Of a stretch of 64,000 nt of DNA, positions 2,894-46,161 are shown piece after piece; the first letter of the stretch is position 1, and every line of letters starts with the position of its first letter. The DNA lies in assembly GCF_900168115.1 (NCBI RefSeq), contig NZ_FUZC01000012.1, positions 62,001-126,000 on the forward strand, given 5' to 3'. Origin of the DNA: Salegentibacter salinarum (GTDB taxonomy: Bacteria; Bacteroidota; Bacteroidia; Flavobacteriales; Flavobacteriaceae). Made by a program: the position numbers and the translations under genes. The notes under the pieces were generated by a model. It was given only the letters and a program-made list of their open reading frames with translations, had not been told where the DNA came from and searched no databases.

Positions 2894-3294
2894 GGGGTCG
2901 ACTTGGTTTTGACAGCGAGTCTAATTGAGTTGTAAGCACGTCGAGCGCTGGGATATAGCTCGTAAATCTCATATTTCACACTTTTTTAAACGGCGAAGAT
3001 AACTACGCCTTGGCTGCATAATCCGAATCACAGTAGGATTTGCTTAGTCCCTACAAGGTAGGGAGCCAAGATGTCCCGCGAAGGCCTTGATTTACGGCAT
3101 TCGCAACCGGGGCACCGATAAAGTAAATATAGGAACTGTAGGACCTTGATGCAGTTTTGAAATCTAATTGAGGATACGGAAAAAGTTGGGTAGTTTTCAG
3201 CCAGACTTTTTCCTGACAATCTAAGTGAAAACTAAGCGTGTAGAAGGCAATTTAATTGCTTGTTTGGACGAGGGTTCGAACCCCTCCGACTCCA
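2894..3294 (+). ncRNA. ssrA: tmRNA (transfer-messenger RNA)
   Basis: The 5' end GGGGTCGAC pairs with the 3' end CGACTCC to form the acceptor stem, and GGGTTCGAACCCC (from about 3272) is the T-arm. The tag reading frame at 2989-3021 encodes NGEDNYALAA then TAA, a typical proteolysis tag ending in ALAA. The RNA rescues stalled ribosomes with SmpB. The final 13 bases (3282-3294) are duplicated at 46149-46161, which makes the gene end an attachment site. The reconstituted gene appears intact. A strong terminator follows at 3318-3352. Confidence 0.96.
3282..3294 (+). other. attL: ssrA 3' end used as integration site
   Basis: The sequence ccctccgactcca at the very end of ssrA recurs exactly at 46149-46161 in the same orientation. 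The flanking bases differ on both sides, as expected for a short recombination core. The adjoining tyrosine integrase gene, within 270 bases, supports the reading. The exact crossover point inside the 13 bases cannot be told. Confidence 0.85.
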
Positions 3295-3352: not shown

Positions 3353-3396
3353 TGTTTTTAGGAATATCAATTAAAATCAAATAAATACATCCTAAT

Positions 3397-3539: not shown

Positions 3540-3555
3540 TAAAATTTCAAAAATT

Positions 3556-16780: not shown

Positions 16781-16784
16781 ATTT

Positions 16785-17933
16785 CTAATTTTTAAATTTT
16801 TTAAATAAATGATAGGTAAAATAAACATACACTGCACAAAGTAAAAGCACAATAAAACTAATAGAAACCCCAGCCATCCTGTTTACCAGACCCATTAGAG
16901 GAGGGATTACTGCACCACCTACCACAGCCATAATCATCAAGCCTGAAATTTCATTAGCTCGGTTTGGAAGTTTTCCTATTGTTAAAGAAAAAACAAGGGG
17001 GAAAAGATTTCCGGAGCTAAGTCCTATTAAAAATATTAGCACCAATGCAACCAAAGAATTTGGAGCAACAATTAAAAGGACTATACAAAAAATTGTAGAA
17101 ATCGTAGTCCAATAAAGAAACTTAAGATTATCCACCTTCGCAAGAATTAAAGCTCCTAAAAAACGACTTGTCATAAGAGCAAAAAAGTAAACACTTATAC
17201 CTAAAGATGCCCTTTCCAGTCCCACCTCAAATTTTTGTACTAATAAGTTTTGTATACTGGTATTCATTCCCACATCCAGACCTACAATTAAAAAAATTGC
17301 TACTACCATAGATGCTACAAATGGATTTTTAAGAAGGCTCAAGCTTGTTTTAAAAGAAGCTTTAAATTCAGATTGAGTTTCATCAATACCTGTTAGAATC
17401 AACCAGCTCCCGGAAAAAATTGAAATAAAACCATAAACTAGAAACACCAACTTCCAATCTCCATATGAGGCAACCATAAAAGTCACTATAAGAGGCCCTA
17501 CTAAAGAACTGATTGCTTTTATAAATTGAGACAAGCTCATAAAACTGGAAAATTTATTTCTATTTACTACATCCTGCAGTAGTGGGTTTGAGGAAACCTG
17601 TATAATAGTATTGCCAATTCCCAATAAAAGGAAACATAATAATAAAGTAGGATAGGTATAATGCACAAAAGGAATAAACATTCCTATAGCGGTTGTAAAA
17701 ATTCCCGCTAAAAGAATTTTTCTCTTTCCGAAATTATTTTGAAATATCCCTACAGGAATTGAAAGAAGAAAAAACCATATAAAAACCATAGATGGAATAA
17801 GCTGGGCAACTTCGGGAGAAAGATCAAAATCCCGTTGAGCATAACCTGTAGAAACACCTACAATATCTACAAAACCCATGACAATATAGGACATCAAAAC
17901 CGGTGCTATTTTGTTGATTTTTTGCTTACCCAT
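16785..17933 (-). CDS. MFS sugar transporter, inner membrane
   Basis: The 382-residue protein has about 12 membrane helices and MFS features: an N-terminal GFVDIVGVSTGYAQRDFDLS loop, FGKRKILLAG (motif A-like, about 68-77) and a second-half GNLFPLVFSLTIGKLPNRANE loop typical of FucP/glucose-galactose-type sugar permeases. It probably carries mannose from periplasm to cytoplasm. It sits between the ROK kinase gene (8-base gap) and the GH92 gene (4-base gap), an arrangement that links release, uptake and phosphorylation of mannose. Proton coupling is typical of the family but is not shown here. Confidence 0.85.
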   Translation of the reverse strand: MGKQKINKIAPVLMSYIVMGFVDIVGVSTGYAQRDFDLSPEVAQLIPSMVFIWFFLLSIPVGIFQNNFGKRKILLAGIFTTAIGMFIPFVHYTYPTLLLCFLLLGIGNTIIQVSSNPLLQDVVNRNKFSSFMSLSQFIKAISSLVGPLIVTFMVASYGDWKLVFLVYGFISIFSGSWLILTGIDETQSEFKASFKTSLSLLKNPFVASMVVAIFLIVGLDVGMNTSIQNLLVQKFEVGLERASLGISVYFFALMTSRFLGALILAKVDNLKFLYWTTISTIFCIVLLIVAPNSLVALVLIFLIGLSSGNLFPLVFSLTIGKLPNRANEISGLMIMAVVGGAVIPPLMGLVNRMAGVSISFIVLLLCAVYVYFTYHLFKKFKN

Positions 17934-24997: not shown

Positions 24998-25017
24998 TAC
25001 TAAAACGATTTAGTTTA
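24998..25017. promoter_or_regulatory. LacI-type operator, copy 1
   Basis: The sequence tactaaaacgatttagttta is identical over 20 bases to 37364-37383 upstream of the second susC. The core CTAAAACGATTTAG is a near-palindrome with a central CG, the usual form of LacI-family operators. It lies upstream of the peptidase unit (minus strand). Confidence 0.7.
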
Positions 25018-25157: not shown

Positions 25158-27449
25158 TCAATCTTCACTTTTACTTAAAGAAAACGGTCTGGATTCTTCT
25201 GAAATACCCCTATTTTTATTAGGGCTATCGTCCATTTGAAATTCTAATCTCCCTCCATTAAAAATTTGATCGTAAGTAAGAAAGTTCTTTCCAAATTCCT
25301 CCCCATTTAAAGAAGCCGATTGGATATAGACATTTTCTTTATTGTTATTCTTAGCCCTAATTACAAAGGATTCCCCATTCTCCAAATTGATGGTGGATTT
25401 TTCAAAAATAGGGCTACCAATCACATACTCGTAAGTTCCGGGAGCTACACTATAAAAGCCAAGTGCACTAAGCACATACCAGGAAGAAGTTTGCCCCTGG
25501 TCTTCATCGCCGGGATAACCATTCTCTGTATAACTATACAAGTTTTCCATAACTTCCCTAGCCTTCTGTTGTGCCTTCCAGGGTTGGCCGGCATAATTAT
25601 AAAGATAAATCATATGCTGAATTGGCTGATTTCCGTGGGCATATTGGCCCATATCGGCCATTTGCATTTCGGTCATTTCGTGAATTTTTCCGCCGTAGGT
25701 CCCCACATTTACTTTATTGGAAACATTGAAAACCGAATCCATTTTAGCCGTAAAGCGTTCATCCCCTCCCATTAAATCAATAAGTCCTTTCGGGTCCTGA
25801 AAAACTGACCACAGGTAATGCCACGCATTTCCTTCCGTAAAAGGGCCGCCCCATTCATAAGGATCAAAATTTTCTACCCATTCTCCATTTTTCTTTCTTC
25901 CACGCATAAAACCGGTTTTTTTATCAAAAACATTTTTATAGTTATACATATGGCGGGAAAATATTTCTTCATAGAATTCGTTTCCTGAATCTTTCGCCAG
26001 TTTATAGGCACAAAAATCATCATATGCATATTCTAAAGTTTTTGCAGTACCTTCTCTTACCTCTGGATAAGGAACATAACCCAGGGTAAAATATTCTTTC
26101 CAACCTTCACGACCATTCGCAGGTCCCCACGGACCTTTATTGGTTGCCTCATGGAAATAGGCATCAAGCGCTTTATCTGGGTCAAAAGTTCTGAGTCCTT
26201 TTGCCCAGGCATCGGCAAGAAGAGAAATGGCGTGATTCCCAACCATACTTCCAGCTTCACTGGGGAAAGACCAGGAAGGAAGCCAGCCACATTGTTCATA
26301 AGCATCTAACAAAGCAGCCACATAACGGCCGTGCATCTTGGGCGAAAGAATGGCGTTTAAAGGAAATTGACCGCGGAAAGTATCCCAAAAACCAGTATCG
26401 GTATACATATATCCTTCATGAATTTTTCCATCATAAGGACTGTAATAATAAGGTTCTCCCTTCTCATTTATTTCGTAAAACTTTCTGGAAAATAAGCTCG
26501 CTCTAAAAAAACAGGAATAAAAGGTTTTAAACTGTTCTTCTGTGCCGCCTTCTACCTCTATCTTTCCTAATTGTTTATTCCATATTTCACCTGCATTTTT
26601 CTTTGTTTGCTCAAGGTTTCTATCTTTACCCAACTCATTTTCCAGGGTAACCTGAGCCTGTTCTTTACTAATGTAGGAAGATGCTACCTTAGCCTGAACT
26701 ATTATCCCTCTTTTAAATTCCAGATACGCTCCTATTCCTTTACCTTCCCGAGTAGTCTCTCCTTCCCATTTCTTTCCATTTTTATTTTCCCAGGTTCCGT
26801 AGGCTTTAAAAGGTTTATCAAACTGAATTACAAAATAATTTCTAAAATTATCAAAACGTTGCATTCCACGACCATTTCTAACATATCCGGTAATTCTTCG
26901 ATTCTTTTTATCAATTTCCACTCCGCTTAATCCAGTATATCCATCTAAAACTAGATAAGAGGATTTCTCCTTTGGAAAATCAAAACGAAGGTGAGCCCCG
27001 CGTTCGGTGGGTGCGATTTCAGTTTTTATTCCGTTCTCCAGCTTTACCATATAATAATTGGGTTTGGCAGTTTCATTATCGTGGCTAAATTTAGTAGAAC
27101 GTTCATCTTCCATTAATTTTAATTCTCCAACAACCGGCATTAAGGAAAATACAGCATAGTCATTAGACCAGGAGCTACACTGATGCGCCTGTTGAAAACC
27201 TCGTATTTCATCTTTAAAATATTGATATTTCCAGCCATCACCATTTACCCCGGTTTGCGGGGTCCAGGTGTTCATCCCAAATGGCAGGGCTGTAGTGGGA
27301 TAAGTATTACCACGGGTAAGTTCAAATTTTGAATTCGTTCCCTGCAAAGTATTCACATATTCTACAAGCTCCTTTGCTGGATTGATATTCTGTGCAGGAA
27401 GACTAAACGAAATTAAAATAAGGCTTATTAAAAATAGATTTTTGTTCAT
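25158..27449 (-). CDS. GH92 exo-alpha-mannosidase (copy B)
   Basis: The 763-residue protein has a cleavable signal peptide (…SFSLPAQN) and is therefore probably periplasmic. The N-terminal beta-sandwich (RGNTYPTTALPFGMNTWTPQTG, QQAHQCSSWSNDY) and the (alpha/alpha)6 barrel carry FTEGNAWHY (Glu539, aligned with the catalytic acid), HGNQPIQHMIYLYNYAGQPW and GYPGDEDQGQTSSWY (Asp648 and Asp650). The Glu-to-Asp spacing of 109-111 residues matches what I recall for BT3990. It is the third gene after the terminator in block B, 19 bases after the 58-residue membrane-protein gene. All catalytic motifs are intact. Linkage specificity is not assigned. Confidence 0.92.
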   Translation of the reverse strand: MNKNLFLISLILISFSLPAQNINPAKELVEYVNTLQGTNSKFELTRGNTYPTTALPFGMNTWTPQTGVNGDGWKYQYFKDEIRGFQQAHQCSSWSNDYAVFSLMPVVGELKLMEDERSTKFSHDNETAKPNYYMVKLENGIKTEIAPTERGAHLRFDFPKEKSSYLVLDGYTGLSGVEIDKKNRRITGYVRNGRGMQRFDNFRNYFVIQFDKPFKAYGTWENKNGKKWEGETTREGKGIGAYLEFKRGIIVQAKVASSYISKEQAQVTLENELGKDRNLEQTKKNAGEIWNKQLGKIEVEGGTEEQFKTFYSCFFRASLFSRKFYEINEKGEPYYYSPYDGKIHEGYMYTDTGFWDTFRGQFPLNAILSPKMHGRYVAALLDAYEQCGWLPSWSFPSEAGSMVGNHAISLLADAWAKGLRTFDPDKALDAYFHEATNKGPWGPANGREGWKEYFTLGYVPYPEVREGTAKTLEYAYDDFCAYKLAKDSGNEFYEEIFSRHMYNYKNVFDKKTGFMRGRKKNGEWVENFDPYEWGGPFTEGNAWHYLWSVFQDPKGLIDLMGGDERFTAKMDSVFNVSNKVNVGTYGGKIHEMTEMQMADMGQYAHGNQPIQHMIYLYNYAGQPWKAQQKAREVMENLYSYTENGYPGDEDQGQTSSWYVLSALGFYSVAPGTYEYVIGSPIFEKSTINLENGESFVIRAKNNNKENVYIQSASLNGEEFGKNFLTYDQIFNGGRLEFQMDDSPNKNRGISEESRPFSLSKSED

Positions 27450-30348: not shown

Positions 30349-32163
30349 TTATTCTATACCCAGAATGCGCCATTCACTTAGTTGCATGGCACCACCACTA
30401 CTAATTGCAGTCACATGGAAGCGATAGTATTTATAGGCAGTTTCATTATCTACCAAAAATTCTTTAGTCTGGTTTCGCTCACTAAATGTCTGCTCCTCCC
30501 GAGTATCTAGAACAACCCATGATTCTCCATTGTTAGATCCAAGAATCTCCCAATTTTTGGGATCTCTTTCTGGAGAATCATTCCCAGAAGTTAGGGTATA
30601 TTTAGTAATTATTTTAGCCTCCGGTAATTCCTGTTGTGCATAAAACTCGGAAGTATACCCACCTAAAAAGAATTTGGTGTTCACATCATTATCTATCAGT
30701 TTTAATGAGCCTTCAGGACCGTCAGGGCCTGAGCCATTTTCCTGATTTACCGAAAGTATTGCATTTTCAGTAAAATCTTTAGGACCAAAGTCTAATAGCT
30801 GTAAATTAAGCAGTCTCCATTCACTTACCTGAATCAAGCTACTGCCATTATTGTCAAGAACATTTATTCTGTAATACAGGTAAGCATTGGAATTGTCAAA
30901 ATTATATTCACGTGTTTGGTTACGCTCTGTCCAAGATTGATCCGTTCGAGTATCAATTACTTCCCAGGTAATTCCGTCATTAGACCCAAGCAGTTCCCAG
31001 CTTTTCATATCCCTGTCCGGAGCATCGTTTCCAGAAGTAATTGTATATTTATTAGCTACTTTAGCGTCAGTAAAATTCTGTTGCATCCAGAAATCCTGAG
31101 GAAATCCTCCTGTTAAGAATTTACTATTCACATCGTTATCAATAAGTTTTAAAGATCCTTCGTTGGCTTCTGCTCCTCCATCATTATCCTTACTTACACT
31201 TACTGTAGCTTCTGAGGTTAAATCTATAAGCTCTGAAGCTGGTTCAAAAGGATAATTCAAATTAGGAAATTCTGCCCTTGCTTGTAGCAGTTCATCATTA
31301 TATCCATCGTTCCATTCAAAGGCAGCTTCTGCCATAGGTAAGAGATCCTCTCCTGTAGCAGCACTCCAAAAATGAATAAATTCACCCATATTCATATCCT
31401 TGGAGTATTCGCTTCCATCTATAGGATAGTTTTGAGAAAGTACTTCAAAAAAGTTACTTACAGTATTAGCTCCATTATAAGTCTCATAAATAGGAAGAAA
31501 CCAGTCCTTAAACCACTGGGTACCAGGATTAGGAAAATCATCAACATCATTCAAATATTCCTGTTTTACTCTACTAGCCTCGTTATCCATGCCTAATTTT
31601 CTATACAGGTCAAATATAAATATTTGGGAAAACTTATCCTTCCAAACAGCCTTGGCAGGAGATTTAAAAACACCATTAGCCGACATCTGAACAACATCTG
31701 CCATTAAGCGCAGAGGCTCATCTAATACCGCTCCAGTTGAATCTGCAGGAACTGTAAAATCAATAAGGCTATGGGAATCTTGCTGATCAAAAACAGTGGT
31801 ATAAATACCTTCACTTGACTCTCCATGTCCCACAACATAAAGTGCGCTTTCATTTCCAAAATCGCCATAAATATCAGTAACTTCATTCCAAGCGGAACTA
31901 AAGAAATTAAATGGCCAGGTAATGGAACGATCTACAACAGTGTCATAATATACCCCTACATAATCATCAAAATACTGTCTCCTAACCGCGTGATCATGGC
32001 TCTGATAATTTTCTACAAAGCCACGAGGAGGTGCTCCTGGTGGATCATTATTAACCTCAGCATCAGGCAAGCCTTCAATCGCCGAAGTAGATTCTGGTGT
32101 ACAAGAATAGATCAATCCTGACATAATTGTAATCACCAATATTTTAAAAGTATGTTTTTTCAT
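30349..32163 (-). CDS. Inactive metallopeptidase-like protein with two F5/8C-type domains
   Basis: The 604-residue protein has lipobox IYSC (Cys21). Residues about 50-300 are homologous to the HEIGH peptidase at 23424-24356 (shared YDDYVGVYYD, ITWP, YGDFG, GTQWFKDWFLPIYE, MNMGEFIHFWSAA), but the metal site reads RLMADVVQMSANGV, with no HExxH. Two tandem repeats follow (about 310-455 and 460-604) with LIDNDVNSKF, YTITSGNDAPDRD, SWELLGSNDGITW, VSEWRLL, the pattern of F5/8 type C (discoidin, CBM32-like) domains. The gene is 157 bases after susD. It is best read as a surface glycan-binding protein built on a dead peptidase. Confidence 0.85.
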   Translation of the reverse strand: MKKHTFKILVITIMSGLIYSCTPESTSAIEGLPDAEVNNDPPGAPPRGFVENYQSHDHAVRRQYFDDYVGVYYDTVVDRSITWPFNFFSSAWNEVTDIYGDFGNESALYVVGHGESSEGIYTTVFDQQDSHSLIDFTVPADSTGAVLDEPLRLMADVVQMSANGVFKSPAKAVWKDKFSQIFIFDLYRKLGMDNEASRVKQEYLNDVDDFPNPGTQWFKDWFLPIYETYNGANTVSNFFEVLSQNYPIDGSEYSKDMNMGEFIHFWSAATGEDLLPMAEAAFEWNDGYNDELLQARAEFPNLNYPFEPASELIDLTSEATVSVSKDNDGGAEANEGSLKLIDNDVNSKFLTGGFPQDFWMQQNFTDAKVANKYTITSGNDAPDRDMKSWELLGSNDGITWEVIDTRTDQSWTERNQTREYNFDNSNAYLYYRINVLDNNGSSLIQVSEWRLLNLQLLDFGPKDFTENAILSVNQENGSGPDGPEGSLKLIDNDVNTKFFLGGYTSEFYAQQELPEAKIITKYTLTSGNDSPERDPKNWEILGSNNGESWVVLDTREEQTFSERNQTKEFLVDNETAYKYYRFHVTAISSGGAMQLSEWRILGIE

Positions 32164-32320: not shown

Positions 32321-34114
32321 CTACCACCCTGGATTTTGAATCAGTTTTGGATTTGCATTTATCTCGTCTTGGGGAATTGGCCATAGATAATCTTGTGGAC
32401 GAAAAACCCTTTTTTCAAAAACAACCGTATTATAAAATTCTTGCTCATCTCTGGCATTAACGTCTTTTCCGTGCATATCTCCACCAAAGGCGTCCTCAGC
32501 AATTTTCCAACGGCGTGCATCAAAATAACGAACATTCTCAACAAAAAGTTCAATACGTCTTTCTTTATGAATTGCTTCTCTTACAGCATCTTGTCCTGAG
32601 GGCGCGGGAAGGTCAACATCTCCATATTCAGGTATTCCAGCTCGCTCACGAATAAGATTAACATACTTCAGAATATCTGGATTTCCAGGATCGTATTCGT
32701 TTAAAGCCTCAGCATAATCTAAATAAATTTCTGCCAGACGCATATATGGAAGACTCCTAGCGCCATAATCTTCGGCAGCTTTTTTACGAACAATATACCC
32801 TGTTGGTGGGTAATCATTAGTTCCAGCTTGAATGCCTGAATTCCCACTATACCAGGTTGTTGTAACAATGTCACCAAAATTTCGATTTAACCAAAGTCGA
32901 TTATTGTAGGTTACACCTGCATAAAAGCGGGGCTCCCTATTGGTCCAAGGATTAAAGGTTGTTCTTGGTGCGAAATCGTCAGGCGCTTGAAAATCAGAAA
33001 ATCCGCTATCTCGGTAACCTGATTGAGGATCGTCTATAGATCTACCACTATTGGTAAAAAATGCGTCTACCATTTCTTGAGTAACACTAAGTCCTCCAGC
33101 ACCAGTGGGTGAATTACCAGCCACTCCAATATGTAAAGGTGTTACATCATATTGATATGAATTATTCCCTCTAGGTATTGCATAAATAATTTCAACATTA
33201 AAATCTTCTAATGTGCTATTTTTAACTGAGAGGAATGGATTTAAACTTCCATCATTATTAAATTCCTTATAAAGCTCAAACGAACTAGGTACAAATTTAT
33301 CGATAAATGCTTTTGCAGCATCAGCTGCCTTTTTCCATTTTTGTTGATCATAGCTTTGAGGTACTAAGTTATTCCCCTCTGAATCTATTAAATCTGAATA
33401 ATCAGAATTACCATTATAAAGTGGACTTGCAGCAAAAAGCAATGTTTTTTCTTTAATAGCCATCGCAAAAGGTGTACTCATACGCCCCGCATTTTGGCCA
33501 TCAAAATTCACTCCATCTAGAGCTTCAGCTCCTTTATCTAACTCTGATACTATATAGTTAGTTACAGCATCTATACTATTTCTTTCTAAGCCCAACTCAT
33601 CTAAATTGGCATTAGTTGGAACAACTGTTTCCGGCATTAGAAGAATAGGTCCCCAGCTACGCATTAAATTGTAATAATAAAACGCTCGTAAAATACGTGC
33701 TTCAGCTGCGTATTGTTCTTTTATATCTGCAGAGCAGTTTTGACATTGATCAATACTGTTAATCAAGGTAGTAGATGCTCGTATCCCTCTATAAAAATTT
33801 GACCATAGATTACTCACATTTTGAGTAGTTGCATTCCAATCGGCAATGTTTAAATTATTACCCATATGGAAACCCCATACGTATTCAGCTTCATCTGAAG
33901 CTCCAGTCCATGGACCTGAATTCGCACTAGTAGTATACCGTTGACTAAACTCATTCGGAAATCGTGAATAAATATTAGCCAAATACCCCCTCACAGTATT
34001 TTGTTTAGAAAAAGTCTCATCGAAAGTTAAACGATCATCGGGAACCTGATCCAGATAATCATCGCTGCAGGAGAGCATCATTAAGCCACAACATAAAATT
34101 ATTATTTTTTTCAT
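32321..34114 (-). CDS. susD: SusD/RagB family nutrient-binding lipoprotein (block B)
   Basis: The 597-residue protein has lipobox MLSC (Cys16), followed by SDDYLDQVPDDRLTFDETF. SusD motifs are ILRAFYYYNLMRSWGPILLMPE, YMRLAEIYLDYAEALNEYD and ERRIELFVENVRYFDARRW; the end is KLIQNPGW. It is longer than the block A copy (522) with extra loops in the middle. The gene is 41 bases after susC of the same pair. It should present a second class of glycan, perhaps the more complex mannoprotein chains handled by the GH92 and peptidase genes below. Confidence 0.95.
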   Translation of the reverse strand: MKKIIILCCGLMMLSCSDDYLDQVPDDRLTFDETFSKQNTVRGYLANIYSRFPNEFSQRYTTSANSGPWTGASDEAEYVWGFHMGNNLNIADWNATTQNVSNLWSNFYRGIRASTTLINSIDQCQNCSADIKEQYAAEARILRAFYYYNLMRSWGPILLMPETVVPTNANLDELGLERNSIDAVTNYIVSELDKGAEALDGVNFDGQNAGRMSTPFAMAIKEKTLLFAASPLYNGNSDYSDLIDSEGNNLVPQSYDQQKWKKAADAAKAFIDKFVPSSFELYKEFNNDGSLNPFLSVKNSTLEDFNVEIIYAIPRGNNSYQYDVTPLHIGVAGNSPTGAGGLSVTQEMVDAFFTNSGRSIDDPQSGYRDSGFSDFQAPDDFAPRTTFNPWTNREPRFYAGVTYNNRLWLNRNFGDIVTTTWYSGNSGIQAGTNDYPPTGYIVRKKAAEDYGARSLPYMRLAEIYLDYAEALNEYDPGNPDILKYVNLIRERAGIPEYGDVDLPAPSGQDAVREAIHKERRIELFVENVRYFDARRWKIAEDAFGGDMHGKDVNARDEQEFYNTVVFEKRVFRPQDYLWPIPQDEINANPKLIQNPGW

Positions 34115-34155: not shown

Positions 34156-37100
34156 TTAAAATTGTATGGTTCCGCCTAAAGCAATTACAGATATATTGGG
34201 ATAACGACTACCGTTACTTGTATTCAACTCAGGATCCCAAAGATCAAAATCCGTTATCGTAAATACATTTGTAGCTCGGAGGTAAACCCTAAAGTTATTA
34301 ACACCCACATATTTGGTCAGCGTTTCAGGAAGATTATAGCCCAATTCTGCAGATTTTAATCTGAAAAATGCAATGTCTCGCAACCAATAAGTACTCAACT
34401 GCGTATTGTTACCCTGCCCAATTGCTGATTGTCCATAAGATAATCTGGGAGTGGTCGCATTGGGATCATTATTTTCGGGTGTCCATCGGTCATTTACTAT
34501 AGCATATGTACTACCTTCCCCACCATCACCGGTAAATGGCTGTACTCCATAACCTCCTATATAACGATCTGCAAACTCTTGCCCCTGAAAAAACATACTG
34601 AGATCAAAACCTTTAAATTGACCTGTAATTCCAGCACCGTAGGTTAAAGCAGGAACATCTCCATCACCGATAACCTTACGATCGAAGGCATCTATTTGAC
34701 CATCTTCATTAAGATCTACGTATTTAATATCACCAGGTTGTATTTGACCGTATTGCGTAGGAAAACCATCTTCGGTTGTAATAAAACCGTCTCCATTTAT
34801 ATCGTCTTCAAGAGTAAAAAGTCCATCAGCAACCAAGCCTCTGTTAGCGAGCAAACCATAACCTTTATCATTTAACCAAGGATGAGGTTGCCTAGGTTGA
34901 CCGCTCTGTATAATTTCATTTCTATTATAAGAAAATGTACCTCTAAAACCTAAGCGAAATTCTTGACCTATTGTAGTATTATAGTTAATTGTACCATCAA
35001 AACCTTTATTATTCACAACCCCAATATTTGCTGAAGGGTCAGAATTTAATCCTATATAGTTAGGAATATCTCTACGGTTTAAGAATGCACCTGTGGTATG
35101 TTCTTTAAAAAAGTCAACAATCACTCTAAGATCGTTATTGAAAGCATTAAATTCAATTCCTAAATCCTGTTTACGAGAAGTAGCCCAGGTAACGTCAGCA
35201 CCATAGAAAGTTTCTTGAATTCCTCCAATACCTCCAGGATTTTCACCATAAGAATAACCAGGTTGACCCTCTTCTACCCTACTTAAAAAAGCAAAACGAC
35301 CAGCTCCAGAATCAGAACCTACTTCACCATCAGAATACCGTATCTTAAAATAATTAATAGTATTTGAGATTGGCTCAAAGAATTTTTCATTAGAGAGTAC
35401 CCAACCAACAGCAAAAGACGGAAAGAAACCATATCGATTTTCTGGAGCAAATTTCTCAGAACCGTTATAACCGGCATTCACTTCCATAAAGTAACGTTCG
35501 TCATAAGAATAAGTAGCTCGGCCGGCCAAACCTTGATTTCTATACGGAATAGCATCGGTAAAATTACCAGCGAAATTATCTGAGAAATCTGATCGATTTG
35601 CCAAAAGCAAGCCACTCACATTGTGTTTTCCAAATTCACGATCGTAATTAAGAGAAGCTTGAAGATAAGTTCTCTTATTACCACCATTTGATCTATCATA
35701 TCCCAAAAAGTTTTGACCGGTAAAAGTTTCGTTCAACAGCAATGAGCCATCTTCGTTATAAGGGAAATTAGAATCTACAAAAAACGTGCTTTCTCGTTTG
35801 CCTCGGTTTATATCTTGTTCGTTATAGGTATCAAACCCAAACAAACCATGAAAAGACAAGCCCTTAACAATAGAACCCAATTCTTGGGTAATATCAAGGT
35901 TTGTATTAAGTTTATTACGGGTTAAAGATCGATAACCTCTTAAAGCAACCTCAGCATAAGGGTTACGCAAACCTCCGTTAACACTTCTACCAGGAACATA
36001 GCCTCCCGGATAAATTTTAGGATATACTACAGGGTTTGCCTCTAAAGCCGTTCCAAATATCGCATCTACACCACTAGAAGGATAATCTCCTTCAGAAAGG
36101 TATCCCTGGATCCCAACATTGACCTGTGTAGTCTTAGTAATATCCAGAGTCAAGTTTGAGGTGAAATTATAACGTTTAAAGCGAGTATCTGAATCGTAGT
36201 TTTCAAGTCCATCGGTTACAAAAAGACCGGTTTCATCATAATACCCCATTGATACATAATATCGAGCTCTTTCAGCCCCACCACTAACATTGAGTAAGGC
36301 TTTTCTATTTCGCCCAAAATCTCTAAATACTTCGTCCAGCCAATTTACATTAGGATATAACAAAGGGTCTTCGCCACTGGCCGTTCTGTCGATATAGTCT
36401 TGCGAATAGAGGGGAACCTGACCTCTGGTGGTTCTGGCTTCATTAGCTAAATTCATATACTCAATACCGCTAGTGAGCTCAGGCACTTGTGTGAAATAAG
36501 TAATACCCTCAAAATAATCAAGACTTATTTCTGGCTTTCCTATTTCACCTCTTTTCGTTTGAATAAGGATAACTCCATTCGCCCCACGAACACCGTAGAC
36601 CGCTGTCGCCGAAGCATCTTTTAGTACGGTAAAGGAGTCAATATCTCGAGGATCGATATTATCTAAGGAACGTTCTATACCATCTACGAGAACAAGTGGT
36701 CCTGAACCTCCAAAAGTAGAAATACCACGTATCCAAAGATCTGCCCCATCAAAACCAGGCAGTCCTGATCGTTGCACCCCTGTAAGACCAGCAACACGTC
36801 CTGCCAACTGAGTTCCTAAATTAGCGACAGGCAATTCGAGCTCCTCGGCCTTCACCGTAGATTGCGCCCCCACTACACTTATTTTCTTTTGCTTTCCATA
36901 TCCAACTAGTACCACCTGATCTAAAGCTTGAGGATCATTTTCAAGCGCTACATTTATAGTAGTCTCCCCCTCCACAGCTCTTTCCAATGTCTGCATTCCC
37001 ACATAAGAAAATATTAAAACAGCATTTTGAGGTGCAACATCAATTGAGTAATTCCCATCAAAATCAGTCATCACCCCGTTAGTAGTACTTTTTTCAAGCA

Positions 37101-37311
37101 CATTTACTCCCGGTAGAGGCAGCCCCATATTATCTGTTACCGAACCGGTAACCGTAATTGTATTGTCTTCCTGTTGCTGAAAAGCCAGAGCATCCAAATC
37201 ACTACCAATGTAGAAAATTAAAGTAAAGACAAGAAGTTGAGTAAACTTTTTTGTTGTGACTCCAGTCTTACATTTAATTAATGTAAGATCCCATATCATT
37301 TGTATTTTCAT
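34156..37311 (-). CDS. susC: SusC/RagA family TonB-dependent transporter (block B)
   Basis: The 1051-residue protein starts at ATG 37311 with a long, weakly typical leader (MKIQMIWDLTLIKCKTGVTT) before the hydrophobic segment LLVFTLIFYIGS; a start at Met5 is possible. It has a carboxypeptidase-regulatory-like domain (about 50-125; TNGVMTDFDGNYSIDV), a plug beginning LDQVVLVGYGKQKK (about 130) with SFTVLKDASATAVYGVRGANGVILIQTK, and a barrel ending ALGGTIQF. It is only distantly similar to the block A copy, so the two pairs are not a recent duplication. Its promoter region holds the LacI-type operator at 37364-37383, 53 bases upstream. Confidence 0.94.
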   Translation of the reverse strand: MKIQMIWDLTLIKCKTGVTTKKFTQLLVFTLIFYIGSDLDALAFQQQEDNTITVTGSVTDNMGLPLPGVNVLEKSTTNGVMTDFDGNYSIDVAPQNAVLIFSYVGMQTLERAVEGETTINVALENDPQALDQVVLVGYGKQKKISVVGAQSTVKAEELELPVANLGTQLAGRVAGLTGVQRSGLPGFDGADLWIRGISTFGGSGPLVLVDGIERSLDNIDPRDIDSFTVLKDASATAVYGVRGANGVILIQTKRGEIGKPEISLDYFEGITYFTQVPELTSGIEYMNLANEARTTRGQVPLYSQDYIDRTASGEDPLLYPNVNWLDEVFRDFGRNRKALLNVSGGAERARYYVSMGYYDETGLFVTDGLENYDSDTRFKRYNFTSNLTLDITKTTQVNVGIQGYLSEGDYPSSGVDAIFGTALEANPVVYPKIYPGGYVPGRSVNGGLRNPYAEVALRGYRSLTRNKLNTNLDITQELGSIVKGLSFHGLFGFDTYNEQDINRGKRESTFFVDSNFPYNEDGSLLLNETFTGQNFLGYDRSNGGNKRTYLQASLNYDREFGKHNVSGLLLANRSDFSDNFAGNFTDAIPYRNQGLAGRATYSYDERYFMEVNAGYNGSEKFAPENRYGFFPSFAVGWVLSNEKFFEPISNTINYFKIRYSDGEVGSDSGAGRFAFLSRVEEGQPGYSYGENPGGIGGIQETFYGADVTWATSRKQDLGIEFNAFNNDLRVIVDFFKEHTTGAFLNRRDIPNYIGLNSDPSANIGVVNNKGFDGTINYNTTIGQEFRLGFRGTFSYNRNEIIQSGQPRQPHPWLNDKGYGLLANRGLVADGLFTLEDDINGDGFITTEDGFPTQYGQIQPGDIKYVDLNEDGQIDAFDRKVIGDGDVPALTYGAGITGQFKGFDLSMFFQGQEFADRYIGGYGVQPFTGDGGEGSTYAIVNDRWTPENNDPNATTPRLSYGQSAIGQGNNTQLSTYWLRDIAFFRLKSAELGYNLPETLTKYVGVNNFRVYLRATNVFTITDFDLWDPELNTSNGSRYPNISVIALGGTIQF

Positions 37312-37363: not shown

Positions 37364-37383
37364 TACTAAAACGATTTAGTTTA
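37364..37383. promoter_or_regulatory. LacI-type operator, copy 2
   Basis: tactaaaacgatttagttta is identical to 24998-25017 and lies 53 bases upstream of the block B susC start. The match over 20 bases at two distant promoters points to one regulator encoded elsewhere. Confidence 0.75.
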
Positions 37384-38353: not shown

Positions 38354-39247
38354 CTACTTAATCTTCGGAAACCCAGTCATAGATATTTTATAATATATTG
38401 ATTTAGCATTGTTTTTTTTAATTATATAATAAGTTAATAAAGGAATCAATCCGTGCGGAAGCCTGTATATAGTAGTAAACAAATATTGATGAAATATTAT
38501 TGCTGAAAATTCATAGGTCAATCCACTAATTATCCTTGCGAAGGCGGTAAAAAAACCCCAAAAGACAGCATAAACTAATGCTATATTTGAAGTTTTAGGT
38601 AAAAAAATCAATATTGCTGCTAAAAAATCTAAACATCCAGCAATCAACAGAAAACTCATTGCCTGACCTTCAGTAATTGTCAAAATATTGATAACCATCG
38701 TCACGAAATTTCCTGGCACCGGATAAGGCCGTCCAACTGCATATAATCCATGGCTTATAAAAGTTAACGCTATAATCAATTTTAAAAATAAAATCCAGGT
38801 AAATTGCCTTTCTTTCAATTTAAAACACGCCAGAAGTGCTATTGGAGAACCAAATTGGATAGCATGTTCAAAAAACATGGCAAAATGGTAAAAATTACTT
38901 TTTGCCTGTAAAACAGCTAAAAAGATTAATGACCCAGCTCCGGTTCCGATAATATATTTTAAAACATCATAATTTTTTCTAGTGATGAAAACGCTTGCTA
39001 TTCCACAGAAAAAATAAAAGAAACCTACACTAACAATTCCAATTTGTATTTTATTATCAATTGAAGTATTTGTTACATAATCCGCCCAATCCATCCTAAA
39101 AACACTTTTTATTATAGGGCTTAATATGGCTTCATCCCAGAGAAGAGATCTGTAAGGAGGATCATAAAAAATATGTTCATAAGCTCTTCCAAAAAAAACA
39201 CAGACACAGCAAAATTTTAAAAGATTTAAAGTGCGCGTTATTGGCAT
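38354..39247 (-). CDS. Polytopic membrane protein, unknown function
   Basis: The 297-residue protein has about seven to eight membrane helices and conserved-looking polar spots: FGRAYEHIFYDPPYRSLLWDE near the N-terminus, FEHAIQFGSPIALL, LTFISHGLYAVGRPYPVPGNFV in the middle. The pattern is reminiscent of DoxX-like or heme-copper-type membrane proteins, but I cannot assign a family. It is divergent from GH92-C; about 200 bases between the two starts contain a LacI-type operator, so both may be controlled together. Confidence 0.65.
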   Translation of the reverse strand: MPITRTLNLLKFCCVCVFFGRAYEHIFYDPPYRSLLWDEAILSPIIKSVFRMDWADYVTNTSIDNKIQIGIVSVGFFYFFCGIASVFITRKNYDVLKYIIGTGAGSLIFLAVLQAKSNFYHFAMFFEHAIQFGSPIALLACFKLKERQFTWILFLKLIIALTFISHGLYAVGRPYPVPGNFVTMVINILTITEGQAMSFLLIAGCLDFLAAILIFLPKTSNIALVYAVFWGFFTAFARIISGLTYEFSAIIFHQYLFTTIYRLPHGLIPLLTYYIIKKNNAKSIYYKISMTGFPKIK

Positions 39248-39297: not shown

Positions 39298-39316
39298 TGA
39301 CTAAATCGTTTTAATA
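39298..39316. promoter_or_regulatory. LacI-type operator, copy 3 (inverted)
   Basis: Reading the minus strand, ttaaaacgatttagtca matches the CTAAAACGATTTAG operator at 13 of its 14 core bases (plus-strand core ctaaatcgtttta at 39301-39313). It lies between the divergent membrane-protein gene and GH92-C. Confidence 0.65.
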
Positions 39317-39448: not shown

Positions 39449-41521
39449 ATGAGTTGTAAAAAGTCTATTTTATCAAGTTTATTATTTCTCGCATTTACCA
39501 CCATTTTTTCACAGCAAAATTTCACGGAAAAAGTAAATGTTTTTCTGGGAACTTCTGGAGATTATGGTCAAATGTCACCAGCAGCATCCTATCCATTTAG
39601 TATGATGAGTATTAGCCCTCAAACAATCCCGCACAATCATACTGGATATGAATATTACGCAAAAAAATATATTGGCTTCACCCATACACGAATTGAAGGA
39701 GTGGGATGCACAGGTTCCGGAGGAAATATTTTAATTAGGCCATTCTCAGGTAATGACTATTCAAAAAATCTAATCAAAAAGTCTCAAACAGCAAGTCCCG
39801 GTAATTATTCTGTTTTTTTTGAAAATGGAATTAAAGCAAAGATAAACTCTGGTTTAAATTACGGAGTTAATAGTTTCACATTTCCAAAAAATAAAAATGG
39901 TGTTTACATAGATTTAGGCTTTGCACTTGCCGGACGATTTAAGGCTGAAGAACATCAAATAAAAAATGGATTAATAAAGGGTTGGATAGATACAGAGACA
40001 ACCTGTAGCAGGGGTGTTTATAGGTTATATTTCGCAATAAAACTCCCTTCAGATTATGATTTAAAAAAATTAACAGAACATAAGTATATATTGAGCGGAG
40101 ATTCTGATGAAATTCAAATACCCGTGGCATTTTCTTCAGTAAATAGTGAATATGCTGCGGAAAAAATTAAAAATAATCAATCTTTAAATTTGAAGGAAAC
40201 TACTGAAAAGAAATGGAATGAGCTGTTAGGTAGGATTCAGGTAGAAGGAGAGAATGATAGAGAGAAATTGTTTTATTCACTACTTTATCGTGGACTGCAA
40301 GCTCCATTTCAAATTTCTGAAAATGACGGGAAATTCAGAGCCACAAATGGCTCAATTCAAACATCAAAAAATACAACTTATAACGGTTGGGCCATTTGGG
40401 ATAATTATAGAGAGCAACTACCCATGCTTTCGCTTATGTACCCCGACAAATATGCCGATATTGTAAAATCTATTGCAAATCTTTATCGGTTTGGAAAACA
40501 AGAATGGGCAACCATGCATGAGCCGTCTCCAACGGTACGTACAGAACATGCATTAGTCGTTTTATTAGACGCAGTAAGAAAAGGTTATGATCTAAATTTA
40601 AAATCAATTAAGAAATCTTTAATGGAGGAAGCCAACAATCTAAAGTATGATTCACCGGATAAAGCTTTGGAAACTTCTTACGATAAATGGGCTATGGCCG
40701 GTCTGCTACACCAGATCAATGAAAAAGAACTGAGCTATAAATATTTAAAAGAATCCCAGAAATATAAAGAATTCTGGAAAAAAGATTTTAAAGACCTTTC
40801 CAGAAATGATGTAGATCAAATGCACGCTCGAGGACTTTATCAAGGTACAATTTGGCAGTACAGGTGGTTTGTCCCTTTCGACTTAAATGGTTTAAAAAAA
40901 TTGGTTGGAGGAGAAGATAAATTTTTAGACCAGCTAGACCAGTTTTTTGAAGACTATAATTATAATCACGCTAATCAGCCTGATCTTCAAGTTCCAGGAA
41001 TATACAATGCAACTAAAAAACCCTGGAAATCACAAAAACTTTTCCGTAAAATCCTGTTGGATACGATGGTGCAAACCTATTTTAATAATAACAGTAAAGG
41101 AATAGATTCTTATATAGGCAAGATATATAAAAACCAGCCCAGAGCTTATCTCAGAACTATGGATGACGACGCCGGAACAATGTCCTCATGGTTTGTTATG
41201 AGAAGTTTAGGCTTATCTGCAGCTAATGTGGGCTCACCTATATATTATCTAACAGCACCAATATTTAGGGAGTATACAATCACCTATAAAAATAATAAAG
41301 AATTTAAAGTCAAGGTCAATAATTATAATAAAGATTGGTTTTATATTAAATCGGCCAAACTAAACGGAAAAACCTTAAATAGAAATTGGCTTACTCATCA
41401 GGAAATTGTCAATGGAGGTTATCTTGAAATAGAACTTTCAAAAGAACCAAACAAGAAATGGGGACTACAAGATCAATTTGCAACCGATCTGGAACGGCCT
41501 TTTTCCCTACCATCAAAATAA
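39449..41521 (+). CDS. GH92-family enzyme with Glu-to-Gln at the catalytic-acid position (copy C)
   Basis: The 690-residue protein has an N-terminal signal peptide (to about FSQQ). GH92 motifs: SPAASYPFSMMSISPQT, RIEGVGCTGSGGNI, WAIWDNYREQLPML, NHANQPDLQVPGIYN and TMDDDAGTMSSWF (Asp572, Asp574). The box holding the catalytic acid reads YQGTIWQYRW: Gln465 where copies A and B have Glu in EGNAW-Q/H-Y. Spacing to the Asp pair (107-109) confirms the alignment. In GH92 this Glu-to-Gln change is known from a mannosyl-phosphate uncapping enzyme (CcMan5, as I recall), whose phosphate leaving group needs no protonation. The gene heads a three-gene unit with a phosphatase. The phosphomannan role is inferred. 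Confidence 0.88.
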   Translation: MSCKKSILSSLLFLAFTTIFSQQNFTEKVNVFLGTSGDYGQMSPAASYPFSMMSISPQTIPHNHTGYEYYAKKYIGFTHTRIEGVGCTGSGGNILIRPFSGNDYSKNLIKKSQTASPGNYSVFFENGIKAKINSGLNYGVNSFTFPKNKNGVYIDLGFALAGRFKAEEHQIKNGLIKGWIDTETTCSRGVYRLYFAIKLPSDYDLKKLTEHKYILSGDSDEIQIPVAFSSVNSEYAAEKIKNNQSLNLKETTEKKWNELLGRIQVEGENDREKLFYSLLYRGLQAPFQISENDGKFRATNGSIQTSKNTTYNGWAIWDNYREQLPMLSLMYPDKYADIVKSIANLYRFGKQEWATMHEPSPTVRTEHALVVLLDAVRKGYDLNLKSIKKSLMEEANNLKYDSPDKALETSYDKWAMAGLLHQINEKELSYKYLKESQKYKEFWKKDFKDLSRNDVDQMHARGLYQGTIWQYRWFVPFDLNGLKKLVGGEDKFLDQLDQFFEDYNYNHANQPDLQVPGIYNATKKPWKSQKLFRKILLDTMVQTYFNNNSKGIDSYIGKIYKNQPRAYLRTMDDDAGTMSSWFVMRSLGLSAANVGSPIYYLTAPIFREYTITYKNNKEFKVKVNNYNKDWFYIKSAKLNGKTLNRNWLTHQEIVNGGYLEIELSKEPNKKWGLQDQFATDLERPFSLPSK

Positions 41522-41566
41522 AATCAAAAAAATAGATTTGTAATCCAATTTACTAAACTAATCATA

Positions 41567-42799
41567 ATGAAGCATTTAACCCTCACCATAATATTCTCTT
41601 TTTTAACTTTCTATAGTATTGCTAAAAATAGCCGTTATAGAATTATTATAACAGATGACCCATCTTCAACCATAACAATAGCTTGGGATCAAATTTCTGG
41701 TCAAAATCCAAGAGTATATTATGGAATAACAGATGGAGGAATGTATAGTTCCAAATATTCCTTAAAAAAATCACCCGATAGAAAAGTCGACTATAAAGGA
41801 ATGAATAATCATTTCGTTACACTAACCAAGCTTAATCCTGATACTAATTATTATTTTATTATTAAAGATAGTGAAGGTGTAAGTAAGAGATTTTGGTTTA
41901 AAACAGCTCCAAAAGACAATATAAGCATGTCTTTTATTTCCGGTGGTGATTCTCGGAATAACAGAGTACCCCGGATTGAAGCAAATAAATTGGTTGCAAA
42001 ATTAAAACCCACAGCAGTATTTTTTGGCGGGGATATGACTAATAGTGGTTCAGAAGAAGAGTGGATTGAATGGATGGATGACTGGCAGCATACTATAGCT
42101 CTAGATGGCAGAATGTTCCCTATTTTACCAGCTAGAGGAAATCATGAAAGATCGAATAGTTCGATTTACAATCTCTTCAACACTCCTTCAAAAGCAGTCT
42201 ATTATAACATCGTTTTCGGAAAAAATTTATTTTCCACATATACCTTAAATTCTGAAATAGCGGCTGGTGGAAATCAGTATGCATGGTTAAAGAAGAAAAT
42301 TAAAAATGACAAGGCATTATGGAAATTTATACAGTATCATAAACCAATGCGCCCTCATCAATCTCATAAAGCAGAAGGAAATGATGAATACAATAACTGG
42401 GCAGAATTATTCTATAAAAACGGAGTTAACCTGGTAAGCGAATCGGATTCTCATGTTGTTAAAACTACCTACCCTATTAAACCATGTAATGGAGGAGAAG
42501 ACTGTGACGAGGGCTTTGTACGAGATGATCAGAAAGGTACTGTATATGTTGGGGAAGGTTGCTGGGGAGCCCCATTAAGAAATAATGATGATGATAAAAG
42601 CTGGACTAAAAATTCAGGTTCATTTAATCAGTTTAAATGGATTACAGTTTCCAGAAAAGAAATAAAACTCCAAACCATAATTGTTGACAAGGCCAACCAG
42701 GTTTGCGAAAATTCAAATAGCACAAAGCTCGTAAAATTACCGTTTGGAGTAAAAGTATGGGAAAACGAGGGAGAAAGTATAGTTATCCGTAACCCATAA
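41567..42799 (+). CDS. Secreted purple-acid-phosphatase-like metallophosphoesterase
   Basis: The 410-residue protein has a signal peptide (to about SIAKN), an N-terminal Fn3-like purple acid phosphatase domain (about 25-115) and a metallophosphoesterase domain with ISGGDSRNN, FFGGDMTNSG, ARGNHERS and QYHKPMRPH. The last metal motif reads SESDSHVV where many relatives have GHxH. It begins 45 bases after GH92-C and is followed after 25 bases by the rhamnosidase gene. In this setting it could remove phosphate from mannose-6-phosphate groups after the GH92-C enzyme has removed the mannose cap. Substrate is inferred from context. Confidence 0.85.
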   Translation: MKHLTLTIIFSFLTFYSIAKNSRYRIIITDDPSSTITIAWDQISGQNPRVYYGITDGGMYSSKYSLKKSPDRKVDYKGMNNHFVTLTKLNPDTNYYFIIKDSEGVSKRFWFKTAPKDNISMSFISGGDSRNNRVPRIEANKLVAKLKPTAVFFGGDMTNSGSEEEWIEWMDDWQHTIALDGRMFPILPARGNHERSNSSIYNLFNTPSKAVYYNIVFGKNLFSTYTLNSEIAAGGNQYAWLKKKIKNDKALWKFIQYHKPMRPHQSHKAEGNDEYNNWAELFYKNGVNLVSESDSHVVKTTYPIKPCNGGEDCDEGFVRDDQKGTVYVGEGCWGAPLRNNDDDKSWTKNSGSFNQFKWITVSRKEIKLQTIIVDKANQVCENSNSTKLVKLPFGVKVWENEGESIVIRNP

Positions 42800-42824: not shown

Positions 42825-45515
42825 ATGAAACTTAACTCTCTTACAACTGGCTTATTTATTTTACTCCTCCAGATCTTTGTTTCATGCCAGAAAGAGAAAC
42901 CTAAAAACGTAAAAGTAGCTAGTCTAACTTCCGAGTACCTTAAAAACCCAATAGGCCTCGATACTGAAAAACCCAGGTTTAGATGGAAGCTAGAAACCGG
43001 AGATCAAGAGGTGCTGCAGGAAAACTATGAAATCTATGTGGGAACTGATTCTGTTGAGGTTTCCAACGGAAAGGGCAATTTTTGGCAATCAGGAGAACTA
43101 GCTGATGGTAGCAATCTAGCCATCTATGACGGAGAACCTTTAAAACCATTTACCAAATATTACTGGAGCGTTAGAATTGGTGTTGAAAACTCAAAGATTA
43201 ATGCGATTTCAGAAGTCGCCAGTTTTGAAACCGGAATAATGAACGAAACTTGGAAAGGTTCGTGGATTACCGATGGAGAAGATATGGATTTAAAACCAGC
43301 ACCCTATTTTAGAAAAGAAATTGATATCACTAAAGAGGTAAAAAAAGCTACTGCTTATATTACTGCTGCTGGATTATTTGAACTGCATATTAATGGTGAT
43401 AAAATAGGGAATAATCGCTTAGACCCAACTTACACCCGCTATGATAAAAGAAACCTATATGTTACCCACGATGTAACAAAGCAAATTCAGGAAGAAGATG
43501 AAATTGCCCTTGGAGTTATTTTAGGAAATGGATGGTATAATCATCAATCTACCGCTGTATGGAATTTCCACGAAGCGGGGTGGCGTAACCGCCCCAGATT
43601 TTTAATGAACTTAAAGATTCAATATAAAGATGGGACTTCAGAAGATATTGTTACCGATAGCGACTGGAAAACCGCCACCGGCCCTATTATCTTTAATAGT
43701 ATTTATACCGCCGAACATTATAATGCAAATTTAGAAGACTCTAACTGGAACTCTCCTAATTTTGAAGGTTCTGCATGGGAAAATGCGATAGAGACCGAAG
43801 CCCCTTCTAATAATATTGTGGCACAAAGCTTACATCCTGTAAGAAGTACAGAAGAAATTAAACCAGTTAGTGTACAAAAAATTAGTGATACGAAATACAT
43901 CTTTGATTTGGGCCGTAATATTTCTGGGGTAAGCAAGATAAAACTCAAAGGAGAACCAAACACGGAATTAAGGATCACTCATGCGGAACAACTGGATAGT
44001 ACTGGTGCCATTGACATGTCCAATATCGATGTACATTACAGGCCTACGGACGATTCTGACCCATTTCAAACCGATATTTTCACTTTAAAGGGGGATGGAG
44101 AAGAAACCTTTATGCCTAAATTCAACTATAAGGGCTTTCAATATGTGGAAGTAAAAAGTAATAAACCTGTTGAATTAAATAAAGAAAGCCTTACCGGTAT
44201 GTTTATGCATAGTGATGTGCCGCAAGTGGGGAAAATTAAAAGCTCAAATGAGATAATAAATAAAATCTGGGAAGCCACCAATGCTTCATACTTATCTAAC
44301 CTATTTGGCTACCCAACAGATTGCCCTCAGCGAGAAAAAAACGGGTGGACAGGGGATGCCCATATAGCCATAGAAACGGGTTTATATAATTATGACGGAA
44401 TTACCGTGTATGAAAAATGGATGGATGACCATAGGGACGAGCAGCAGCCAAATGGGGTGTTGCCTTCTATTATCCCTACTTGGGGATGGGGGTATGATTG
44501 GGGGAATGGTCCGGATTGGACCAGTACCATCGCAATAATACCCTGGGAATTATACCAGTTTTATGGAGACAGTCGTGCATTGGAAGAAAATTACGATAAT
44601 ATAAAACTTTATGTAGATCATATTACAGAAATCAGTCCTTCTGGTTTGACAGACTGGGGATTGGGTGATTGGGTTCCTGTGGAGGATAAAACTCCGGTGG
44701 AATTAACCTCCTCTATCTACTATTATGTAGATGCAAATATTTTAGCAAAGACAGCCAAACTTCTTGGTAAAGAAGAGGATAATAGAAAGTATAGCGATCT
44801 GGCTGAAAAGATCAAACTAGCTATTAATGAGAAATACCTGAATAAAGAAACAGGTATCTATGGAAGTGGATTCCAGACAGAATTAAGCGCTCCATTATAT
44901 TGGGGGATTGTTCCAACAAATCAAAAAGAACTAGTGGCGAAGAATCTTGCTGCAAAAGTAATAGAAGATGAGAAACATATTAATGTCGGCTTACTGGGAT
45001 CAAAGACTATTTTAAATGCGCTTAGCGAAAATGGATATGAAGATCTCGCTTATGAGGTAGCATCGAGAGAGACATATCCTTCCTGGGGATGGTGGATAAA
45101 AAATGGCGCTACCACCCTATTGGAAAACTGGGATATTGGTGCAGATTCCGATCTTTCCAGGAATCATATCATGTTTGGAGAAGTTAGCGCCTGGTTTTTT
45201 AAAGCACTGGGAGGGATTTTTCCTGATCACGAAAATCCCGGATTTAAAAATGTAATTTTAAAACCAAATTTTGTAGATGACCTTGAAAATTTTGAGGCAA
45301 GGCATGATGGGCCATATGGTGAAATTATTTCCAAGTGGGAGAAACAGGAAGAAAATGTCGTAAAATATGAAGTATCTATCCCTCCTAATAGTACAGCTAC
45401 GGTTCATTTAAAAGCTAAGAACATGCAGCTAAATGGAAAGGATGTTGAATCGGGAGAAAAAGCAAGATTTAATTTAAAGTCTGGAAAACACGAAATATTA
45501 ATCTCCCTTCAATAG
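42825..45515 (+). CDS. GH78 alpha-L-rhamnosidase, lipoprotein
   Basis: The 896-residue protein has lipobox FVSC (Cys21). Family domains in order: Fn3-like N-terminal domain (about 40-135), Bac_rhamnosid_N carbohydrate-binding beta-sandwich (about 160-330, LFELHINGDKIGNNRLDPTYT), second sandwich (about 340-450), (alpha/alpha)6 barrel (about 455-800) with DCPQREKNGWTGDAHIA, which carries catalytic-region acids, and a C-terminal sandwich. The Arg-Glu-Lys-Asn sequence differs slightly from the usual R-D/E-E-R. The enzyme would remove terminal rhamnose, or a similar 6-deoxyhexose, from the glycan. It is last in the GH92-C unit. Confidence 0.9.
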   Translation: MKLNSLTTGLFILLLQIFVSCQKEKPKNVKVASLTSEYLKNPIGLDTEKPRFRWKLETGDQEVLQENYEIYVGTDSVEVSNGKGNFWQSGELADGSNLAIYDGEPLKPFTKYYWSVRIGVENSKINAISEVASFETGIMNETWKGSWITDGEDMDLKPAPYFRKEIDITKEVKKATAYITAAGLFELHINGDKIGNNRLDPTYTRYDKRNLYVTHDVTKQIQEEDEIALGVILGNGWYNHQSTAVWNFHEAGWRNRPRFLMNLKIQYKDGTSEDIVTDSDWKTATGPIIFNSIYTAEHYNANLEDSNWNSPNFEGSAWENAIETEAPSNNIVAQSLHPVRSTEEIKPVSVQKISDTKYIFDLGRNISGVSKIKLKGEPNTELRITHAEQLDSTGAIDMSNIDVHYRPTDDSDPFQTDIFTLKGDGEETFMPKFNYKGFQYVEVKSNKPVELNKESLTGMFMHSDVPQVGKIKSSNEIINKIWEATNASYLSNLFGYPTDCPQREKNGWTGDAHIAIETGLYNYDGITVYEKWMDDHRDEQQPNGVLPSIIPTWGWGYDWGNGPDWTSTIAIIPWELYQFYGDSRALEENYDNIKLYVDHITEISPSGLTDWGLGDWVPVEDKTPVELTSSIYYYVDANILAKTAKLLGKEEDNRKYSDLAEKIKLAINEKYLNKETGIYGSGFQTELSAPLYWGIVPTNQKELVAKNLAAKVIEDEKHINVGLLGSKTILNALSENGYEDLAYEVASRETYPSWGWWIKNGATTLLENWDIGADSDLSRNHIMFGEVSAWFFKALGGIFPDHENPGFKNVILKPNFVDDLENFEARHDGPYGEIISKWEKQEENVVKYEVSIPPNSTATVHLKAKNMQLNGKDVESGEKARFNLKSGKHEILISLQ

Positions 45516-46069
45516 AATGTTGACCTTTCCATGCCATATGTAATTATAATCACGTTGGTTTCCTATCCAGGTTTCATTGTAATGCAAACAGGGATAGCCG
45601 ATCAATTATTTTGGCTACGATTGCTGTAAGCAGTTGTCATGGCAAATATTTAATTCTTCACTTTTTTTAGCTTGACTAGAGATAAGTTTTTAGATACCTA
45701 TGCTTGCCATATAAATTTCATTATAGGTGATAATGGTAACAATATTTTCTACCTCAGAACTATCTATAGGCTCCTGTTTTACCTTAACACAGCCAAAGTT
45801 CAATTTGCTTCAGATGAAAGTTTGAAAACTTTCAAGATTTTTGAATCTTTAGGAAAGAACAAATTTTGGAGTTTTCCAGATCATCATTTAATTTCTATTT
45901 ATACTTGCCAATTTGTAAAGAATAATACAGATACCTAGGCCTATTATATTTTAGTCTAAAGGAATCTACAAAAACTTTACATTTGTACATAATAATCAAA
46001 ATAAATCATACTGTTTCTTAATTACTCCAAAAATCATCCGGACTATTCAAACGTTAAAGTTTGTTAAAG
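45516..46069. other. Right end of the element, no convincing gene
   Basis: About 550 bases. A plus-strand frame at 45672-45938 needs a TTG start and has no family features. No terminator is evident directly after the rhamnosidase gene. Confidence 0.45.
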
Positions 46070-46088
46070 CGAGACCAATTCGGTGACC
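46070..46088 (+). repeat. 19-bp repeat near the right end, copy of 3397-3415
   Basis: cgagaccaattcggtgacc is identical to and in the same orientation as the copy just inside the left end. It lies 61 bases from attR. Such paired end repeats fit arm-type sites of the integrase. Confidence 0.75.
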
Positions 46089-46148: not shown

Positions 46149-46161
46149 CCCTCCGACTCCA
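46149..46161 (+). other. attR: partial ssrA 3' end
   Basis: ccctccgactcca is identical to the last 13 bases of ssrA (3282-3294) in the same orientation. A terminator follows at 46164-46200, which is probably the original ssrA terminator before insertion. Confidence 0.85.

Follow-up and report, generated by a model that had tools for sequence, protein, structure and literature searches.

The closest described relative of the protein treated here is CcMan5 (CcGH92_5) of Cellulosimicrobium cellulans (PDB 2xsg, 4aq0), a GH92 enzyme with Gln at the position of the catalytic acid. According to PMC5930347, which cites Tiels et al. 2012, CcMan5 targets Man-P-Man phosphodiesters. Exchange of the acid Glu for Gln in other GH92s has been damaging: AnGH92A E598Q lost its activity on mannosides (PMC12858847), and NnGH92 E944Q was described as inactive (PMC10167667). 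The marine alpha-mannan PULs of Salegentibacter Hel_I_6 combine several GH92 genes with GH76, as does the genome studied here, and the main text of the paper on them has no word starting with 'phosph' (PMC9213526). Our literature search found only one GH92 of mannose-phosphate chemistry named in open papers, and no report of a Gln-type GH92 in Bacteroidota.

The window, a stretch of 64,000 nucleotides from Salegentibacter salinarum, holds three GH92 genes, copies A, B and C (Table 1). Copy C (GH92-C) and the phosphatase gene downstream are intact ORFs on the same strand, the latter of 410 codons, with a gap of 45 bp between them, and both GH92 domains of GH92-C exceed the Pfam and NCBIfam cut-offs. 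The preliminary description had read copies A and B as EGNAW-Q/H-Y with Glu ahead of the Asp site, and copy C as Gln465 with the DDD site at 572-574 at like spacing. ORF reading and alignments bear out both readings: GH92-C has the sequence GLYQGTIWQYRW at the acid site, and Gln465 precedes the retained DDD site by 107 residues. In a 48-row alignment Gln465 shares its column with the acid residue, Glu, of BT3130 and copies A and B, so Gln465 fills the acid position; Asp574 aligns as the catalytic base and is invariant. Since the catalytic acid Glu of ordinary alpha-mannosidases is absent, we do not class GH92-C among them.

Table 1. Coordinates of the features discussed, numbered from the first nucleotide of the window.
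Feature	Position	Strand	Remarks
Left end of island, tmRNA 3' end CCCTCCGACTCCA	3282..3294	+	
Inner 22-nt repeats, both island ends	3394-3415 and 46067-46088		
Tyrosine integrase	3445-4818		beside tmRNA
GH92 copy A, ordinary Glu type	14432..16852	-	EGNAWQY, DED; Glu 105 residues before Asp site
DUF5712 protein	21532-22557		in island
GH92 copy B, ordinary Glu type	25158..27449	-	EGNAWHY, DED; Glu 109 residues before Asp site
Secreted protein with two F5/8 type C domains	30349..32163	-	N-terminal part appears to resemble basic secretory protein family
SusD-like lipoprotein, GH92-C PUL	32321..34114	-	
SusC-like TonB-dependent receptor, GH92-C PUL	34156..37311	-	
Membrane protein, no Pfam match	38354..39247	-	homologue adjoins phosphatase homologue in nine other genomes
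Palindrome-like operator candidate ACTAAATCGTTTTA	39300..39313	+	14 nt, upstream of GH92-C; candidate LacI-type operator
GH92 copy C (GH92-C), Gln type	39449..41521	+	690 aa; GH92N and GH92 catalytic domain (Pfam)
Secreted metallophosphatase	41567..42799	+	Pur_ac_phosph_N and Metallophos (Pfam); family-specific SDSH for GHxH
GH78-type alpha-L-rhamnosidase	42825..45515	+	25 bp after phosphatase gene
Right end of island, repeated tmRNA 3' end	46149..46161	+	

Kinship with CcMan5, to which the Glu-to-Gln reading had pointed, was supported by sequence and by modelled fold. In a phmmer search of the PDB the best match to GH92-C was CcMan5 (2xsg, E 4e-70), with GLYQGTLWQYHW aligned to GLYQGTIWQYRW and Gln465 to Gln536. 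The AF2 model of GH92-C (pLDDT 90.8) has the GH92 fold of beta-sandwich and (alpha/alpha)6 barrel, and its best match by both Foldseek and VIA-align was again 2xsg (Z 43.2, rmsd 2.0 over 654 residues); the next structure in VIA-align had Z 38.6, and all GH92 structures listed had Z of at least 34. A mixed Gln/Glu profile ranked 6f8z slightly above CcMan5. The two proteins have in common the GLYQGT-WQY context of the Gln, a D-D/N-D base site and an insert before the Asp site that ordinary Glu-type GH92s lack. However, they are only 25-29% identical, and GH92-C is a single catalytic unit in a Bacteroidota PUL whereas CcMan5 is a multi-domain actinobacterial protein. BT3990, BT3130 and other Glu-type GH92 alpha-mannosidases agree with GH92-C in fold, Pfam domains, WD motif and base Asp, but carry the Glu acid and lack Arg364 and Glu366. 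This last pair is common to GH92-C and CcMan5, and among 82 control GH92s the Arg occurs in none and the Glu in one.

The Gln-type GH92 is no oddity of one genome but a widespread lineage. An alignment of ten relatives, used to scan genome contigs, recovered 80 loci, and a further genome search raised the total to 84, which form 32 clusters at 75% identity. Gln stands at the acid position in all 84 of these orthologous loci from Bacteroidota, and Glu in all 82 other GH92s of 63 control stretches; Gln465 is thus neither a base error nor chance. The lineage extends from Flavobacteriaceae to Chitinophagaceae, Hymenobacteraceae, Sphingobacteriaceae and Prolixibacteraceae, and is sparse within each taxon (5 of 248 other genomes of the family, 4 of 394 other genomes of the class). 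Relatives from Streptomyces, Novosphingobium and a Persicobacter plasmid also carry Gln; viral contigs yielded no relative. On the tree, ordinary Glu-type GH92s are separated, with support 100/99, from a group of CcMan5, Streptomyces, the Gln clade and a sister group of the latter (L016, L018, L019, L103), which is 37-40% identical and carries Glu (GLYEGTLWQYRW). It is this Glu-type sister that sets CcMan5 apart from the Gln lineage. The best tree places Gln rows in more than one clade, with at least three Gln/Glu changes; a tree with one Gln clade was borderline (p-AU 0.05), and branches are long. Arg364 and Glu366 mark the wider group of CcMan5, Gln lineage and Glu sister, and as the Glu-bearing sister keeps both residues, they are no proof of phosphate binding. 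In the sister group nature also provides a control for what the acid residue does.

A fixed Gln beside an intact base site suggests a leaving group able to depart without protonation, for example phosphate. Other activated leaving groups have a precedent in myrosinase, and Gln beside a retained base would fit any good leaving group. A pocket that accepts either residue is, moreover, implied by the Glu sister clade. GH92-C could then be an ordinary alpha-mannosidase that takes its proton from another group, or act on a substrate with a different activated leaving group. We consider this improbable, because the exchange of Glu for Gln kills ordinary GH92s (PMC12858847) and because phosphoester enzymes recur nearby, as detailed below. 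Loss of the acid would also agree with a catalytically dead protein that serves binding; but in diverse orthologues the base Asp and further residues of the site hardly vary, and the Gln itself is fixed, which is unlike decay and makes this reading very improbable indeed.

We lean towards the reading that GH92-C cuts alpha-mannosyl phosphodiesters (Man-1-P-X) and not ordinary alpha-mannosides, and it probably opens phosphate-capped mannose chains. GH92-C would be a secreted, inverting GH92 hydrolase in which Asp574, with Asp572 and Asp573, activates water. The phosphate ester would leave as a weak base, and for this reason Gln465 could stand in for the acidic Glu, as in CcMan5. The reaction would release mannose and leave the remaining glycan with a phosphomonoester, which a phosphatase would have to remove before trimming could continue. 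The co-directional metallophosphatase of the window may take off this phosphomonoester, for which we see somewhat less than an even chance. What GH92-C catalyses, that the sugar at -1 is manno, in which order the steps follow and which role the phosphatase has are all inferred.

The neighbours of Gln-type GH92 genes give an independent pointer. A phosphoester enzyme lies at +-1 on the same strand in 7 of 32 Gln clusters and, among the Pfam families listed (those of single control proteins being listed in part), in 2 of 70 control clusters (Fisher p=0.004; p=0.01 without the window cluster). After a split by class each half was marginal (p 0.04-0.05). The 70 controls combine two sets: a first set of Flavobacteriales (0/32), which we judged too kind, and a second, matched set from genomes that themselves hold a Gln-type GH92 (2/38 at +-1, 3/38 at +-2), so that controls too have phosphoester enzymes nearby at times. 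The adjoining enzymes belong to four mutually non-homologous families. Proteins with Pur_ac_phosph_N and Metallophos domains stand directly beside the Gln-type gene on the same strand in the window, and beside it in six Muricauda-type loci, where they are about 25% identical to the window phosphatase. An alkaline phosphatase adjoins it on the same strand in L034 and L050, GDPD stands beside it, on either side, in eleven loci of two clusters, and EEP is directly adjacent in L079 and L100. A neighbour in cluster c54 that had been taken for EEP is a basic-secretory-like protein and was removed from the count. Recurrence of non-homologous phosphoester enzymes beside these genes thus supports a phosphorylated substrate, as had been proposed.

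The window phosphatase had been described as purple-acid-phosphatase-like and, with GH92-C, as an uncapping pair; each description holds in part. Its two domains and the GD and GNHE motifs are those of purple acid phosphatases, but it lacks the metal-ligand Tyr of GDxxY and the full GHxH, reading GDMTN and SDSH instead. Because these divergent motifs are conserved within its own family, the protein is probably catalytically active. It does adjoin GH92-C co-directionally, but it is no evolved partner. Nine other genomes of the family have a homologue 46-62% identical to it, and in all nine this adjoins a homologue of the window's membrane protein, in non-PUL surroundings that lack GH92; the membrane protein is therefore taken as the original partner of the phosphatase gene. 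In the window GH92-C stands exactly between these two genes. In Salegentibacter oa5, the closest relative, about 11.8 kb with an extra SusC/SusD set and a GH92-like gene separate the Gln-type GH92 from the phosphatase. Hence the adjacency most likely arose through PUL genes inserting into an older membrane-protein/phosphatase pair. That the phosphatase is a passenger of this event, serving general phosphate release, has about an even chance. The nine pairs that lack GH92 and other PUL genes, and the genes intervening in oa5, favour it; against it, the window and oa5 alike retain the phosphatase-GH78 junction, and the tight, co-directional genes and the 14-nt operator-like sequence upstream, shared with SusC, are pointers to co-option of the phosphatase into the PUL, which is possible. 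The membrane protein and secreted metallophosphatase, the latter often with long C-terminal extensions, also form a conserved two-gene unit in Flavobacteriaceae (the window and L149-L157).

The commonest partner of Gln-type GH92 genes is a secreted DUF218 protein, present in 48 of 84 loci versus 0 of 63 control loci. It lies within six genes on the same strand in 46 loci, directly beside the GH92 gene in 38 of them, and SusC and SusD are within three genes in 44 loci; the typical order is FecR-sigma-SusC-SusD-DUF218-GH92Q. The protein has about 420 aa and near-invariant motifs SGGHxHP and PHARHTTTN (for example L057:8665-9900), and its model (pLDDT 89) gave YdcF (3ca8) as its sole, weak relative and no clue to activity. 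Small SusC/SusD-DUF218-GH92 operons of this kind are the commonest Gln-GH92 locus. For this reason, and because the window PUL also holds a GH78 rhamnosidase, the fungal phosphomannan caps named as substrate in the preliminary description are not established, and a fungal-mannan target is a guess. The same chemistry could instead act on a small or simple phospho-mannoside, such as mannosyl-phospho-glycerol, the repeat of a phosphoglycan or the head group of a lipid, with its own SusC/SusD import and help from DUF218. This alternative is credible, if clearly short of even chances. The small operons favour it, annotated genes outside the unit seem unrelated in L057, L063 and L040 (few loci being fully annotated), and diester enzymes occur in the GDPD and EEP families; the PULs of the window, L034 and L050, however, hold several Glu-type GH92s, which suits mannan or N-glycan. 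At less than even odds, Gln-type GH92 and secreted DUF218 protein, joined in many lineages by a phosphatase or phosphodiesterase, may make up a system that Bacteroidota dedicate to the use of phosphoglycans and that has its own SusC/SusD; DUF218 would in that case be a novel enzyme for phosphoesters or glycan phosphates.

In the window, SusC, SusD, the F5/8 type C protein, a 741-aa protein and copy B are encoded on the strand opposite to GH92-C. Exact copies of ACTAAATCGTTTTA occur at 37367-37380, upstream of SusC, and at 25001-25014; counting the one before GH92-C, the sequence precedes three PUL transcription units, and it is retained upstream of the Gln-type gene in oa5. The 741-aa protein (27670-29895), between copy B and the F5/8 type C protein, had no match in Pfam or the PDB and is possibly an unrecognised enzyme. 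Two ORFs at 23424-24628 jointly resemble the F5/8 type C protein, with a 34-nt stretch 97% identical (23537 versus 31362), and are likely a broken second copy of its gene. Elsewhere, a 589-aa protein (5480-7249) whose C-terminal part is similar to mannose-6-phosphate isomerase (ManA cupin) adjoins a GH76 gene.

Both mannan-type GH92 PULs lie inside a 42.9-kb island (3282-46161) integrated at the 3' end of tmRNA. The integrase stands beside tmRNA, and the tmRNA 3' end and the inner repeat are duplicated at the far end. A congeneric genome carries an island of about 60 kb with the same end sequences and other cargo, and this genome holds no match to GH92-C. From these shared ends, together with the repeats and integrase of the window, the Gln-GH92 system appears to move with an integrative island.

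If our reading is true, it would provide many new candidates for the production of mannose-6-phosphate glycans on therapeutic lysosomal enzymes, and the widespread DUF218 domain gains a testable setting. Moreover, the breadth of the Gln-type lineage would mean that bacteria commonly attack mannose-phosphate links.
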